A DNA stretch of 64,000 nucleotides from Litoreibacter ascidiaceicola. GTDB lineage: Bacteria > Pseudomonadota > Alphaproteobacteria > Rhodobacterales > Rhodobacteraceae. The stretch is from positions 496,001-560,000 of the forward strand of contig NZ_FQUV01000002.1 of the NCBI RefSeq assembly GCF_900129235.1, given 5' to 3'. The translations under genes and the position numbers were made by a program. How positions within the stretch are numbered: the first letter of the stretch is position 1; each line of letters opens with the position of its first letter. Positions 15,999 to 21,215 of this stretch are shown here, in pieces. Under the pieces are notes generated by a model. That model was not told the DNA's origin and did no database searches. It saw nothing but the letters and a program-made list of their open reading frames with translations.

Positions 15999-16562
15999 CT
16001 ACTTGGCGCCGCGCGACAGCGCCGCGACGCCGGTACGGGCCTGCTCGACCAAGCCCAAAGGGCGCATAAGGTCAGCAAAAGCATCAATTTTTTCGGAATG
16101 ACCCGTCATCTCGAAGACGAAGCTTTCCAGTGTGCTGTCCACCACATTGGCGCGGAAAATTTCGGCCAGACGCAGCGCTTCGATCCGGTCGCTGCCAGTG
16201 CCAGTGACCTTGAACAGCGCCAATTCACGCTCGACGCTGGCACCTTCTTCGGTCAGATCGTGGACGTCATGGACGGGCACCATCCGCTCCAGCTGCGCCT
16301 TGATCTGGGTGATCACGGCGGGTGTCCCCACGGTTACGATCGTGATGCGGGAGCGGTGACCTTCATGGTCCACCTCCGCCACGGTCAGGCTTTCGATGTT
16401 GTAGCCGCGTCCCGAGAACAACCCGATTACCCGTGCTAGAACCCCGGCCTCGTTGGTGACGACGCAAGCTAGCGTGTGGCGTTCGATATAGTCGGCGTTT
16501 GGGTCCTTGAGGTCATAGGCCGAATGCTTGGACGAGCCTTTTTTGATTTTCAGCGGGGACAT
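15999..16562 (-). CDS. ilvH: Acetolactate synthase small (regulatory) subunit
   Basis: Regulatory subunit that activates IlvI and gives valine feedback inhibition. Of 187 residues, an ACT domain follows a short basic lead, with LACVVTNEAGVLARVIGLFSGRGYN at about 30-55 (seen as LACVVTNEAGVLAR and GLFSGRGYNIESL). The C-terminal domain contains FEMTGHSEKIDAF. I start at MSPLKIKK (16562) with GAGG upstream. It is separated from ilvI by two unknown genes on the same strand. Confidence 0.94.
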   Translation of the reverse strand: MSPLKIKKGSSKHSAYDLKDPNADYIERHTLACVVTNEAGVLARVIGLFSGRGYNIESLTVAEVDHEGHRSRITIVTVGTPAVITQIKAQLERMVPVHDVHDLTEEGASVERELALFKVTGTGSDRIEALRLAEIFRANVVDSTLESFVFEMTGHSEKIDAFADLMRPLGLVEQARTGVAALSRGAK

Positions 16563-16652
16563 TTTGGGCCTCTTTTCGGTGTCTGATTTCTGTCTGCAAT
16601 GCGTCTGCAAAACGTATGGCATGAAGTGTGTCTGTGTGTGCGTCGCATTTTT

Positions 16653-17021
16653 CTATCTTATGTCGATCACGGGGGTGCCGGATTTGGCCGGATAGCCCGC
16701 TTGTGTCAGGAGTGTCAGGCGCAGCGGTTCTTGCGCTGGCTTGTCGAGGCAGATGCTCGCGGGCCTCACGGTCACGGGCAGGCCGTCAATTTCGATCCGG
16801 TCCGAGAAATGCAACACTTGCGCATCCCCCGAGCCCGTTGCGGTGGCCGTCACCAGATAGCCGCCGTCGGGTGCATCTTGACATCCCACGCCGCAAACGC
16901 AGACCTCGGCGGCCTGAGCGAAGCGCAATTCCTGCTGGTAGACGTCGCGGTTCAGGTCGAAGTCCGGCACCACCGCCGGGGGCAGGGCGGCAGCGAAGAG
17001 GGAGGTGAGCCACTCGAACAT
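16653..17021 (-). CDS. Hypothetical protein in the ilv operon (small)
   Basis: A 122-residue protein I do not recognise. It has a hydrophobic N-terminus (FEWLTSLFAAALPPAVVP) and a short cysteine cluster CVCGVGC near residue 41, followed by beta-type sequence. Its ATG overlaps the stop of the preceding unknown gene by one base (TGATG), so the two are translated together. Its function in relation to branched-chain amino-acid synthesis, if any, is unknown. Confidence 0.6.
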   Translation of the reverse strand: MFEWLTSLFAAALPPAVVPDFDLNRDVYQQELRFAQAAEVCVCGVGCQDAPDGGYLVTATATGSGDAQVLHFSDRIEIDGLPVTVRPASICLDKPAQEPLRLTLLTQAGYPAKSGTPVIDIR

Positions 17022-17653
17022 CAGTTAAACCCGCCCGGCTCGTAGAATTTCTGTTCGCTTTTATGAGTGGTGAACCTTTCGAGTTCTTCTCTGGCTTGCA
17101 ACTTAGCCTCCTCAACTGTCGTGCGTTCAACAAATGCCGGTCCCCGATATGTGTTTGCACCAATGTCGACCATAGCTTTGCAGGTCTGGCACTCGAATGT
17201 GTGAGACACCAAATCATTGCCCAGAAACTTGTCGCTCGGGAACTGTGCCATCAGTTCATCCAATGCGGCTTCGATGTCTTCTTCTCGTACGGGTAGGTAT
17301 AGGGCTTTCACCAACTGAAAACAGCCTTGTCTCGCGCCTTCGGTGAGCTTTCCTGCCTCATCCCGATAGCCATTTTTGCTCAGCGTGGCGCGGGTCAACG
17401 GCAGCCCACACTCACAAGCAAGACAACCTTCCTCGGTCACGGCTCCGTCCGTCCACAAGTAAAACCAGCGCCAACGCTCGCCATTGCGTCTAAAGGACGC
17501 GGCCGCATAAATCTTGTCCCATGGCCCGCTCTTTTTAGGAGTGACTATTTTCAAACCTTCCTTGGGAGCAGACAAGACTTCGCCATCCTCGAACACCAGC
17601 TCATAGGTGTCCAAGGTCTGGCGAAATGTCACTCCGTCAGCCGGTTCGAGCAT
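17021..17653 (-). CDS. Hypothetical protein with two cysteine-pair motifs, inside the ilv operon
   Basis: A 210-residue protein without a recognised family. CLACECG (about residues 78-84) and CQTC (about 156-159) could form a zinc-ribbon-like site. The remainder looks soluble, with a charged helical C-terminus. It starts 3 nt after the ilvI stop, so it is certainly in the same transcript. Several stretches are clearly lower in GC than ilvI, which hints at later insertion into the operon. No function can be assigned. Confidence 0.6.
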   Translation of the reverse strand: MLEPADGVTFRQTLDTYELVFEDGEVLSAPKEGLKIVTPKKSGPWDKIYAAASFRRNGERWRWFYLWTDGAVTEEGCLACECGLPLTRATLSKNGYRDEAGKLTEGARQGCFQLVKALYLPVREEDIEAALDELMAQFPSDKFLGNDLVSHTFECQTCKAMVDIGANTYRGPAFVERTTVEEAKLQAREELERFTTHKSEQKFYEPGGFN

Positions 17654-17656
17654 GGA

Positions 17657-19417
17657 TTACACCATCACCGCGCCTTTGGTGCCTATGGCGTCCTCGCCGG
17701 TGTCCTCGCCCATGAGCATCTCGTTATGAGGTGCGCCCGAGGGGATCATCGGGTAGCAGTTTTCGTGCTTCTCGACGCCGCAATCGAACACAACTGGCCC
17801 ATCATGGTTCAGCATCTCCATGATCGCGTCATCCAGATCGGACGGGTCGGTGCACTTGATGCCTTTCGCCCCAAAAGCCTGCGCCAGAACGACGAAATCG
17901 GGCAGGGCCTCGGACCATGAATGGCTGTAGCGGTTGCCGTGCAGCAATTGCTGCCACTGGCGGACCATGCCAAGGCGCTCGTTGTTCAGAATGAACTGCT
18001 TGATCGGCAGGTTATACTGCCGCGCGGTGCCCATTTCCTGCATGTTCATCAGCCATGACGCTTCGCCCGCCACGTTGATCACCAGCGCGTCGGGATGCGC
18101 CACCTGCACGCCGACGGAGGCGGGCAGGCCATAGCCCATGGTGCCGAGGCCGCCGGAGGTCATCCAGTGGTTCGGGTCCTCGAAGCCCAGATACTGCGCC
18201 GCCCACATCTGGTGCTGGCCCACTTCGGTGCAGATGAAGCGGTCCTTGCGGTGCTTGGTTAGGGCCTCCAGCCGTTGCAGAGCGTATTGTGGCTTGATGA
18301 TGGTTTCGGAATTTTTGTATTCCAAACAACGCTTTGTGCGCCACTCTTCAATCTTGGTCCACCACTTGGCCAGCCCTTCTTTATGGGTCTTGCGCCCGCG
18401 TGATTTCCACACCCGCAGCAGGTCTTCCAGCACATGCGCCACGTCGCCGATGATTGGCACGTCCACATGAATGATCTTGTTGATGGAGGACGCGTCGATG
18501 TCGATATGCGCCTTCTTGGACTGGGGCGAAAACGCATCCACGCGGCCCGTGATCCGGTCGTCGAACCGCGCGCCGATATTGATCATCAGATCGCAGCCAT
18601 GCATCGCCATGTTAGCCTCGTAAAGCCCGTGCATGCCCAGCATGCCCAGCCATTGGTCACCGGACGCAGGATATGCACCCAGACCCATCAAAGTGGAGGT
18701 CACGGGGAAGCCGGTTTCCTTCGCCAACTCGCGCAGCAGCGCGGTCGCGCTGTCGCCGGAGTTGATCACGCCGCCGCCGGTATAGAGGATCGGGCGCTGC
18801 GCCTTTTCCATCATCTCTGCCAGCTCGGTGATCTTCTCGATGTCGCCCTTCACTTTGGGCGCATAGTGCTGCGTGCTGGCGGCTTTCGGTGGCGTATAGG
18901 TGCCTTTGGCGAATTGCACATCCTTTGGAATATCCACCAGAACGGGACCAGGGCGGCCACTGGTCGCCACATGGAACGCCTGATGGATCACGTTGGACAA
19001 CTGGTCGGTGTCCTTCACCAGCCAGTTATGCTTGGAGCAAGGCCGCGTGATGCCGACGGTATCAGCTTCTTGGAAGGCGTCATTGCCGATCATGAAGGTC
19101 GGCACCTGACCGGTCAGCACGATCATCGGGATGCTGTCCATCAGCGCGTCGGTCATGCCGGTTACCGCGTTGGTGGCGCCGGGACCGGAGGTCACCAGAA
19201 CAACGCCCGGCTTGCCAGTGGAGCGCGCGTAGCCTTCGGCGGCATGGGTCGCACCCTGTTCGTGGCGCACGAGGATGTGGTTGATCTTCTCCTGCTGGAA
19301 AATCTCGTCATAGATCGGTAGCACGGCGCCACCGGGATATCCGAATACCGTGTCCACGCCTTGATCAATCAGGGCCTGAACCACCATCTCCGCGCCGGTC
19401 ATTTGCTTGTTCGCCAT
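17657..19417 (-). CDS. ilvI: Acetolactate synthase large (catalytic) subunit
   Basis: The ThDP enzyme that condenses pyruvate to acetolactate or, with 2-oxobutyrate, to acetohydroxybutyrate: the first common step for valine, leucine and isoleucine. The 586 residues carry VFGYPGGAVLPIYD and the catalytic glutamate in RHEQGATHAAEGYAR near the N-terminus, and in the C-terminal domain the ThDP/Mg motif region around MGYGLPASVG and NVAGEASWLMN. In that motif (usually GDGSF) the first residues are AGEAS, a variant seen in AHAS enzymes. I start at MANKQMTG (19417) with AAGGAC upstream. Expression is probably set by the attenuator in front. Confidence 0.95.
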   Translation of the reverse strand: MANKQMTGAEMVVQALIDQGVDTVFGYPGGAVLPIYDEIFQQEKINHILVRHEQGATHAAEGYARSTGKPGVVLVTSGPGATNAVTGMTDALMDSIPMIVLTGQVPTFMIGNDAFQEADTVGITRPCSKHNWLVKDTDQLSNVIHQAFHVATSGRPGPVLVDIPKDVQFAKGTYTPPKAASTQHYAPKVKGDIEKITELAEMMEKAQRPILYTGGGVINSGDSATALLRELAKETGFPVTSTLMGLGAYPASGDQWLGMLGMHGLYEANMAMHGCDLMINIGARFDDRITGRVDAFSPQSKKAHIDIDASSINKIIHVDVPIIGDVAHVLEDLLRVWKSRGRKTHKEGLAKWWTKIEEWRTKRCLEYKNSETIIKPQYALQRLEALTKHRKDRFICTEVGQHQMWAAQYLGFEDPNHWMTSGGLGTMGYGLPASVGVQVAHPDALVINVAGEASWLMNMQEMGTARQYNLPIKQFILNNERLGMVRQWQQLLHGNRYSHSWSEALPDFVVLAQAFGAKGIKCTDPSDLDDAIMEMLNHDGPVVFDCGVEKHENCYPMIPSGAPHNEMLMGEDTGEDAIGTKGAVMV

Positions 19418-19455: not shown

Positions 19456-19482
19456 AAAAAAGCCCCCGTGTTTGGCGGGGGC
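19456..19482 (-). terminator. Attenuator terminator before ilvI
   Basis: On the minus strand GCCCCCG and CGGGGGC pair around a 7-nt loop and are followed by TTTTTT. It ends 39 bp before the ilvI start and after the leader peptide gene. A competing antiterminator pairs 19513-19524 with 19480-19492, taking up the last three bases of the terminator's first arm. Confidence 0.88.
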
Positions 19483-19507
19483 GCATGGGGTCCAGTATGG
19501 AGTGTCG

Positions 19508-19555
19508 TTACCGACCCATGCACCGTTTGACTAGAATGACGACTACATCGGCCAT
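19508..19555 (-). CDS. ilv leader peptide (attenuation)
   Basis: A 15-codon reading frame, MADVVVILVKRCMGR, with a good ribosome-binding site AAGGAG 8 nt upstream. Six consecutive codons are Val-Val-Val-Ile-Leu-Val, the end products of the pathway. Ribosome stalling at these codons would leave the downstream 5' antiterminator arm (19513-19524, codons 11-15) free, whereas reaching the stop would cover it and let the terminator form. The sequence layout is seen directly; the mechanism follows known ilv/leu/his leaders. Confidence 0.85.
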   Translation of the reverse strand: MADVVVILVKRCMGR

Positions 19556-19584
19556 GCCAGATGCTCCTTCGTGAGTGTGCGGGG

Positions 19585-19612
19585 ACATTACCAGCCGATT
19601 CAGGGGGGTCAA
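19585..19612 (-). promoter_or_regulatory. Probable sigma-70 promoter of the ilv operon
   Basis: On the minus strand TTGACC (-35, 19607-19612) and TAATGT (-10, 19585-19590) are separated by 16 bp. The predicted start near 19578 leaves a short leader before the leader peptide's ribosome-binding site, as expected for an attenuated operon. Confidence 0.65.
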
Positions 19613-20168: not shown

Positions 20169-21215
20169 GTGTGCGTGACGGTATATCTTAACGGGCTTGG
20201 CACAGCGGTGCCGCCCCACATCCTGCCCCAGACACTCGCTGAAGACACCGCACGGCGTCTGTTGGGCCCGCGTTATTCTCAATTCGAGCGACTGGCACCC
20301 AGCTTCGCCACCTCCGGCGTCGAGACGCGTTATTCCGTGGTGCCCATCGACTGGTTCACCCATGACAAAGGCTGGCGCGAGCGCAGCGCTACTTATGTCG
20401 AAGGGGCCACCGAGCTGTTCATCAACGCCGCCCGTGCAGCCCTTGACGACGCAGGGCTGCGTGCGGATCAGGTAGACACCGTGGTGACAGTCTCGACCAC
20501 CGGCATCGCCACGCCAACGCTTGAGGCGCGCGCCTTCACCCGCATGGGCTTTCGCCGCGACATCCAGCGCGTGCCGGTTTTCGGCCTCGGCTGCGCGGGT
20601 GGCGTCAGCGGGCTTGGTATTGCGCAGCAACTGGCCGCGGCCAGCCCCGGCTCCAACGTGCTGATGGTCTCGGTCGAGGCCTGTTCGGTGTCGTTCCGCA
20701 CCGACCGGATGCAAAAGGCCGATATTATCGCAACCGTGCTGTTTGGCGACGGGGCCGCCGCCGCGGTGTTGTCCACAGACGGGCAGGGGCCAGAGCTTGG
20801 AGTTGCGCGCCAGATCCTGTGGCCCGACACGCTGGACATCATGGGCTGGGACGTGGACGAGGTGGGCCTTGGCGTGATCTTCGACCGCTCTATCCCTGAC
20901 TTCGTGACGTCTAACCTGCGTGAAGCCGCGCTCAAGGCGTTGGGCCTCAGCGGCCTGAGCGAGAAGGACATCACACGCTTCGTCTGCCATCCGGGCGGCG
21001 CGAAGGTCGTCACGGCCATCGAGCAAGCGCTGTCCTTGGCGCCCGATAGCCTGACGGCAGAGCGGGACGTGCTGCGCGATTTCGGCAATATGTCCGCGCC
21101 GACGGTTTTGTTTGTGCTAAAGCAGGTGTTGGAGCGCAATCAATCAGGCCAGATGATGTTGGCCGCCCTCGGTCCCGGTTTTACCGGTGCCTTCCTGCCA
21201 CTGAAGATCAAATGA
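20169..21215 (+). CDS. Type III polyketide synthase (chalcone-synthase-like)
   Basis: Extends an acyl-CoA starter with malonyl-CoA and cyclises the product, typically to alkylpyrones or alkylresorcinols in bacteria. In 348 residues the catalytic triad is visible: Cys142 in GLGCAGGVSG, His in FVCHPGGAK (about 281) and Asn in FGNMSAPT (about 314). The start is GTG at 20169 or at 20175; AGAGGA lies just upstream. It is the first of four same-strand genes with the ICMT-like methyltransferase and two Lin0512 proteins. Product unknown. Confidence 0.9.
   Translation: MCVTVYLNGLGTAVPPHILPQTLAEDTARRLLGPRYSQFERLAPSFATSGVETRYSVVPIDWFTHDKGWRERSATYVEGATELFINAARAALDDAGLRADQVDTVVTVSTTGIATPTLEARAFTRMGFRRDIQRVPVFGLGCAGGVSGLGIAQQLAAASPGSNVLMVSVEACSVSFRTDRMQKADIIATVLFGDGAAAAVLSTDGQGPELGVARQILWPDTLDIMGWDVDEVGLGVIFDRSIPDFVTSNLREAALKALGLSGLSEKDITRFVCHPGGAKVVTAIEQALSLAPDSLTAERDVLRDFGNMSAPTVLFVLKQVLERNQSGQMMLAALGPGFTGAFLPLKIK

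Follow-up and report, generated by a model that had tools for sequence, protein, structure and literature searches.

In Escherichia coli, the trp, leu and ilvBN attenuators depend on a ribosome coupled to RNA polymerase, on control codons in the leader, and on the choice between an antiterminator and a terminator. Attenuators in front of ilvIH were reportedly predicted in the alphaproteobacteria by Vitreschak in 2004. Like the locus studied here, they reportedly have a branched-chain leader before the acetolactate synthase operon. An excerpt of PMC2573895 refers an "ilvIH cis regulatory" element of S. meliloti to the 2004 work, which is also cited in an excerpt of PMC6123439, where the ilvBN, ilvGMEDA and leu leader attenuators of E. 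coli are mentioned. An attenuator of ilvBN/ilvIH is described in Caulobacter crescentus (Tarleton 1994, as cited in an excerpt of PMC4117421); by its description there, it shares with the present locus tandem Ile and Val leader codons, a rho-independent terminator, the enzyme encoded and the bacterial class. The same excerpt states that ilvBN attenuation is known in Caulobacter, as the original prediction had said.

The ilvB-II and ilvB-OMG RNA motifs, as described in an excerpt of PMC10272879, are likewise conserved RNAs in which a uORF rich in branched-chain residues lies ahead of acetolactate synthase, in ilvB-II together with a terminator, but they come from Corynebacterium and from various phyla, respectively. 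The rnTrpL/peTrpL leader of Sinorhizobium meliloti is also an alphaproteobacterial attenuator leader, of 14 codons; it differs in concerning tryptophan and in its leaderless start, and trans roles are cited for it in an excerpt of PMC10117765. The ilvI attenuator described below is thus not a new kind of regulator, its type having already been reported for alphaproteobacterial ilvBN/ilvIH.

We analyzed a window of 64,000 nucleotides from Litoreibacter ascidiaceicola (contig NZ_FQUV01000002.1, positions 496,001 to 560,000). The features of the locus, in window coordinates, are as follows.

19585..19612, minus strand: sigma-70-type promoter-like pair, TTGACC (19612-19607), a 16-nt spacer and TAATGT (19590-19585)
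19564..19570, minus strand: ribosome-binding site of the leader peptide, GAAGGAG, read from the sequence
19508..19555, minus strand: leader peptide ORF MADVVVILVKRCMGR, 15 codons, with the stop codon TAA at 19510-19508
19529..19546, minus strand: control codons GTA GTC GTC ATT CTA GTC, encoding Val Val Val Ile Leu Val at codon positions -12 to -7 relative to the stop
19513..19524, minus strand: antiterminator 5' arm (arm 2) GGTGCATGGGTC, within the last leader codons and nearly invariant among relatives
19504..19515, minus strand: stop-codon hairpin GTCG-GTAA-CGAC, with the stop codon inside a GNRA-type loop
19480..19492, minus strand: antiterminator 3' arm (arm 3) GACCCCATGCGCC, the last 3 nt of which are part of the terminator stem
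19456..19482, minus strand: intrinsic terminator, GCCCCCG (19482-19476), loop, CGGGGGC (19468-19462) and six T's (19461-19456)
17657..19417, minus strand: ilvI, acetolactate synthase large subunit, the putative regulated gene, with Pfam TPP_enzyme N, M and C domains and its ATG at 19417
15999..16622, minus strand: ilvH, acetolactate synthase small subunit, with Pfam ALS_ss_C and ACT_AHAS_ss domains, downstream of ilvI on the same strand

The promoter-like pair, the good ribosome-binding site, the 15-codon frame with its Val-Val-Val-Ile-Leu-Val run, the terminator hairpin with six T's ahead of ilvI, and the competing arms, the first of them at the end of the leader peptide, are all present as the original prediction had claimed. 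The fold of the window's leader was more stable than those of dinucleotide shuffles (z = -2.42), with 3 of 200 shuffles equally good. When the window's leader is folded free, the ribosome-binding site pairs over a long range with the U-run; this was set aside as likely generic purine/U pairing. The covariance models of Rfam 15 gave three chance matches in the window between 18800 and 20200, all under their cut-offs, and none at five loci. Immediately 3' of ilvI, on the same strand, lies a 210-residue ORF without a Pfam match (17021-17653, minus strand). Across the divergent region is a gene for a type III polyketide synthase of the chalcone/stilbene synthase family (20169-21215, plus strand).

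A DNA search matched the leader region in 144 of the 198 genomes of the family, with 146 matches in total. We fetched 110 of these places, the 36 omitted being mostly weaker matches, and found an ilvI start at 109 of them (108 genomes including the window's own, with G024 contributing two). The remaining place, L091, is an additional match in G135 whose stretch contains no ilvI. Each of the 109 ilvI loci has a leader containing Val, Ile or Leu codons, both antiterminator arms, the terminator and a TTGAC promoter-like pair. Because this complete layout recurs in relatives, at 109 of the 110 fetched places, the leader is far beyond chance. The original prediction had made conservation of the peptide and stems in relatives the sequence part of its own refutation test; in the alignment of the leaders, both are conserved. 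The promoter-like pair, TTGACG or TTGACC with a passable -10, occurred in 109 of 109 leaders, compared with a mean of 9.9 and a maximum of 16 in 50 mononucleotide shuffles. It ends 20-34 nt upstream of codon -15 in 107 of the 109; the -10 and the spacer (15, 16, 17 or 18 nt) are variable. Purine-rich stretches precede many of the leader ORFs among the relatives.

A covariance model built from the ilvI-type leaders, R1, gave a single strong match in the window's own genome (E = 6e-23; next best, 0.05). The next-best matches there (L112-L114) resemble plain terminators by eye. Across the order, R1 had matches in 107 of 112 genera (264 of 292 genomes). At all 12 additional matches checked (L115-L126), from this search and from the class sample described below, ilvI was the downstream gene. 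No R1 match was obtained in the remaining 28 of the 292 genomes; among the 20 of these that were listed, 13 belong to genus g24. Four missed genomes were inspected, and three (L147-L149) carry a diverged leader and terminator. The fourth, G023 of genus g24 (L150), has neither such a leader peptide nor a terminator ahead of ilvI. Genus g24 may have lost the ilvI leader and terminator, a suggestion based on one of its 13 listed non-matching genomes.

Among the 109 ilvI loci, the best seven codons of the leader hold three (2 loci), four (11), five (70) or six (26) Val, Ile or Leu codons, counts that are favored by our choosing the frame richest in these codons at each locus. Despite this choice, the fixed RMGR tail indicates that the same frame was taken at each locus: it is 15-16 codons long in 101 of 109, and its C-terminal end is MGR in 97 and RMGR in 94. 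Positions in the tract ahead of ilvI exchange freely among Val, Ile and Leu. The tract over-uses codons that are rare in the downstream gene. The share of GTA among the tract's Val codons is 51% (152 of 296) versus 5.2% in the ilvI coding sequence, that of CTA among Leu codons 42% (58 of 137) versus 2.4%, and that of GGA among Gly codons 72% (66 of 92) versus 5.9%, the ilvI values being from 30 loci. An excerpt of PMC1183508 names CUA, for E. coli, as the Leu codon best suited to control and expects sensitive attenuators to over-use codons such as this one. At codon -7, after the tract, 65 of the 109 leaders have Gly encoded by the rare GGA, often within an AGGA-like purine stretch; the window has GTC at this position. 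A pausing role for this over-used codon was considered as one possible reason.

We consider the leader to be, with little doubt, a ribosome-mediated transcription attenuator of ilvI, and probably of ilvIH. RNA polymerase would start near 19578, the presumed start site, with a ribosome following it on the 15-codon leader. When Val-, Ile- and Leu-tRNA are plentiful, the ribosome would reach the stop codon and mask arm 2, after which the GC hairpin with its U-run would end transcription. When these tRNAs are short, the ribosome would stall in the V-V-V-I-L-V run and the arm would stay free to pair with 19492-19480 before the terminator 3' arm is made. The antiterminator would thereby remove the base of the terminator stem, and transcription would proceed into ilvI. 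The stop-codon hairpin may form first, in which case it might pause RNA polymerase or shorten the antiterminator loop.

The classical model of attenuation put forward in the original prediction is supported by the conserved peptide and stems and by the geometry of ribosome stalls in silico. We computed partition functions for the 109 leaders with a ribosome assumed to mask 13 nt, beginning with the A-site codon's first base, a type of folding that the original prediction had proposed. The mean probability of the antiterminator was 0.73-0.80 when the ribosome stalled at any of codons -14 to -8, 0.19 when it stalled at -7, and 0.00 from -6 to the stop, so that stalls at -14 to -8 free the antiterminator in these folds and a ribosome at the stop codon masks the arm. 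The tract of Val, Ile and Leu codons is mostly at codons -12 to -8 (-12 to -7 in the window). In the model, a ribosome stalled at most of the control codons would leave the antiterminator arm unmasked, which is the pattern that attenuation needs. The last Val codon in the window (-7) is too far downstream, with a stall there giving an antiterminator probability of 0.06. At equilibrium, stalls at -14 to -9 still leave the base of the terminator paired, with a mean probability of 0.58-0.70 over the 109 leaders and values of 0.93-0.97 in the window. From -8 onward, the mean over the leaders is 0.97-0.98. A stall at -8 may fail to give read-through, because the terminator base is paired at 0.98 there.

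The original prediction had held that the competing stem shares three bases with the terminator arm and that the two folds exclude each other. The last 3 nt of the window's arm are shared as claimed; across the leaders, no more than 2-3 nt belong to both helices, and the terminator base is paired at equilibrium alongside a shortened antiterminator. Given this small overlap and this coexistence, exclusion of the two folds can only be kinetic. Before the terminator 3' arm is made (stall at -10), the antiterminator holds both shared pairs in 109 of 109 leaders. The mean energy of the terminator is -8.3 kcal/mol without its two basal pairs versus -14.8 kcal/mol when complete, and we take the loss of these pairs to be sufficient for antitermination.

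The ilvI leaders share with the E. coli trp, leu and ilvBN systems the coupled ribosome-polymerase logic, the control codons, and the opposition of antiterminator and terminator. Unlike in those systems, the antiterminator 5' arm is inside the leader ORF, its helix overlaps the terminator to just the small extent given above, and no consistent 1:2 protector was found in the leaders, with an early hairpin possible around the stop codon. We looked among the 109 leaders for a segment 1 that consistently protects arm 2 and did not find one; arm 2 pairs upstream with a probability above 0.5 in 49 of the 109 before arm 3 is made, a count that has no shuffle control.

Covariation supports the terminator helix, in which 99.7% of cells are paired and three of seven pairs have a double change. 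At the seven antiterminator pairs counted, no compensatory changes occur among the 108 distinct rows, and covariation therefore gives that helix no support.

The stop codon of the leader can lie in the loop of a small hairpin, typically CCG-GUAA-CGG, with the variant GUCG-GUAA-CGAC in the window. In all 109 ilvI leaders, a potential stem of 3 bp or more encloses the stop codon in its loop. GUAA is the loop sequence in 75 of them and GUGA in 12; the usual loop is of GNRA type and consists of a G followed by UAA or UGA. The stem score was at least 6 in 107 of the 109, versus a mean of 58.8 and a maximum of 69 when the 12 nt after the stop were shuffled. Among the 31 rows with uncommon letters, 29 keep the stem, compared with 23.3 (sd 1.7, maximum 28 in 500 trials) when the downstream parts were dealt out among them. 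Each of the three pairs has a double change (in 5, 1 and 1 sequences), and 93.5% of cells are paired. In the diverged ilvI leaders L147-L149, a stem around the stop is kept, by eye, with quite different letters. The RNAalifold consensus of the whole alignment did not contain the stop-codon hairpin. Before arm 3 is made, the hairpin forms with a probability above 0.5 in 92 of 109 leaders (0.99 in the window); with arm 3 present, the minimum-energy fold of the segment from arm 2 to arm 3 has a hairpin loop around the stop codon in 65 of 109, the window's leader not being one of them. If the hairpin has a role, these folds would place it early in transcription. A second small hairpin, between the stop hairpin and arm 3, was rejected, its stem varying among the 25 leader structures inspected; this region folds slightly better than its shuffles (mean -1.34 versus -0.29 kcal/mol). 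In the E. coli trp leader, the stop codon is also within the loop of the 1:2 hairpin. By analogy, the stop-codon hairpin may be a local form of a pause hairpin.

The same RNA family occurs in front of a second kind of gene. Run on a 190-genome sample of the class (E = 0.01), R1 matched 16 genomes outside the family. Three strong matches (E = 5.7e-17 to 2.1e-16) and L130 (7.3e-6) precede an MFS transporter. The transporters at these four loci (L127-L130) are of the Bcr/CflA type, three being above the TIGR00710 cut-off and one just below it. L130 was kept because it precedes the same MFS transporter as the strong matches; L131 (9.0e-6) was dropped. By eye, the other 12 outside matches (L131-L142) and four extra ones (L143-L146) resemble plain terminators behind unrelated genes, and tblastn found no ilvI at them. 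The regions upstream of ilvI in the L127-L130 genomes, searched by script and by eye, have no such leader.

A pattern scan of named genomes, leaning to the transporter type, gave 50 loci, of which 35 are before ilvI and 14 before a transporter; the remaining one, L169, lies where its stretch ends. The 14 transporters are 50-100% identical to that of L129, three of them being the same records as L127-L129. They come from Kiloniellaceae, Pelagibius, Sneathiella/Sneathiellales, Minwuiaceae, Rhodospirillales, other alphaproteobacteria, and two records named otherwise. L167, in a record titled Paraburkholderia fungorum LMG 16225, and L186, in a MAG titled Mesoflavibacter, have the attenuator and the MFS gene under record names from outside the alphaproteobacteria, which could be caused by transfer, by contamination or a binning error, or by misnaming.

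We built a second covariance model, R2, from the 14 MFS-type leaders. R2 finds the window's ilvI leader (E = 2.3e-17); of the diverged ilvI leaders, L148 was matched only at 0.0064, and L147 and L149 were not found. Since R1 finds the MFS leaders and R2 finds the window's leader, both belong to one RNA family. In 385 genomes of the class, R2 gave 15 matches (E = 1e-4). All five in the window's family are before ilvI and all 10 outside it are before the transporter, a sparse distribution for the transporter type outside the family. These outside matches and L130 span ten families (f2, f16, f34, f41, f65, f82, f105, f107, f148 and f155). A search of the order of G439 for further copies returned G439 alone. 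Within the window's family, two R2 matches are carried by 11 of 36 genomes, a set chosen as the 35 listed with more than one R1 match plus G825, from which the frequency for the family is not readable. In each of the 11, one match is before the transporter, and the other was before ilvI in all three inspected (L243, L253 and L255).

In total there are 33 transporter-type loci (L127-L130, L165, L167, L170, L175, L182, L186, L196, L201, L204-L206, L220, L222-L227, L229, L244-L252 and L254), with the transporter identified by a family scan at four and by similarity to one of these four at the rest. A tree placed the 33 transporters on one side of a fully supported branch from 11 paralogues, these being from the window's genus only and without the attenuator, so that the clade may include attenuator-free members. 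At 14 loci, no conserved gene neighbors of the transporter were found beyond pairs of loci. The stop hairpin is present in 32 of the 33 leaders, with a score of at least 6 in 30, versus a mean of 15.7 and a maximum of 22 in 200 shuffles. The Val run and Arg-rich tail are kept, with fewer Ile and Leu codons; the ATG within RMGR, considered as a site of internal re-initiation, is absent from 13 of the 33.

On sequence grounds, the shared RNA suggests that one starvation signal serves both synthesis and a transporter. The simplest reading of the transporter copies would be that they help against a shortage of branched-chain amino acids, the protein acting as an importer or as an exporter of the cause. 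As a tentative and more specific proposal, the RNA family could define a small alphaproteobacterial starvation regulon, made up of ilvI in the Rhodobacterales and the Bcr/CflA-type MFS clade in part of the Rhodobacterales and at least ten other families of the class. The stop hairpin might synchronize polymerase and ribosome, and the transporter might take up branched-chain amino acids or precursors of these, or might export compounds causing the starvation, acetolactate synthase inhibitors being one possible example. The transporter-linked copies look new, as does the stop-codon hairpin, which the original prediction did not mention. Neither was found in the literature searched, which mostly did not extend to subscription papers and is weak evidence of absence.

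The main rival for the transporter copies is a sensor of translation inhibitors. The leader might respond to any slowing of the ribosome, with the run of Val, Ile and Leu codons acting as a stalling peptide and not as a tRNA sensor. The 33 copies before an MFS gene resembling the Bcr/CflA efflux family would suit such a role, as would the scarcity of Ile and Leu in the transporter-type leaders and their weaker codon bias compared with the ilvI leaders (GTA, 15 of 61 Val codons; CTA, 2 of 11 Leu codons, in 21 leaders). At ilvI, however, the tract swaps Val, Ile and Leu and over-uses rare codons, as tRNA sensing predicts, and the downstream enzyme makes exactly these three amino acids. We consider it unlikely that the leader is mainly a sensor of ribosome slowing.

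Slightly less probable still is that the leader and terminator serve mainly to yield a short trans-acting RNA or peptide, with the near-invariant arms GCGCATGGG and CCCATGCGC as pairing sites. The antiterminator helix is near-invariant beyond what pairing alone demands (window arms 19480-19492 and 19515-19523), its arms barely varying over the 109 leaders without compensatory change, and the ATGCGCC of arm 3 is invariant across the 109 aligned leaders. The same motif is kept in 27 of the 33 transporter-type leaders, and even in four leaders (L165, L175, L181 and L182) that have TTG as codon -3 and a mismatch in the arm-2 partner, which indicates that pairing alone does not account for the conservation. 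The trans roles of rnTrpL/peTrpL in Sinorhizobium (excerpt of PMC10117765) provide a precedent. Against this, the cis layout alone accounts for the position, the codons and the terminator; moreover, arm 2 doubles as coding sequence, and the terminator makes use of the end of arm 3.

The near-invariant arms would also be expected if a trans-acting RNA-binding protein read them and decided between termination and read-through, with the peptide secondary. We regard this as improbable, as the Val, Ile and Leu codons and their distance to the arm fit control by a ribosome, and none of the Rfam families matched. Small ORFs and GC hairpins are common, and weak R1 matches elsewhere resemble plain terminators by eye, but an ordinary promoter, a small ORF arising by chance and a terminator belonging to the upstream region, with no switch at all, can be dismissed for practical purposes, being already contradicted by the conservation of peptide tail, arms and terminator together at 109 of 109 ilvI loci.

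The window's order, the Rhodobacterales, includes common marine and soil bacteria. The ilvI attenuator extends a known regulatory principle to this order, in most sampled genomes of which the R1 model finds it. The transporter copies are the more useful part of the finding, since sharing a regulatory RNA hints at the function of a clade of proteins that otherwise resembles generic drug efflux. The stop-codon hairpin, kept where its letters change, would offer a compact natural system for studying the coordination of polymerase and ribosome, and in particular how the two may keep step when an attenuator has no evident protector hairpin upstream.
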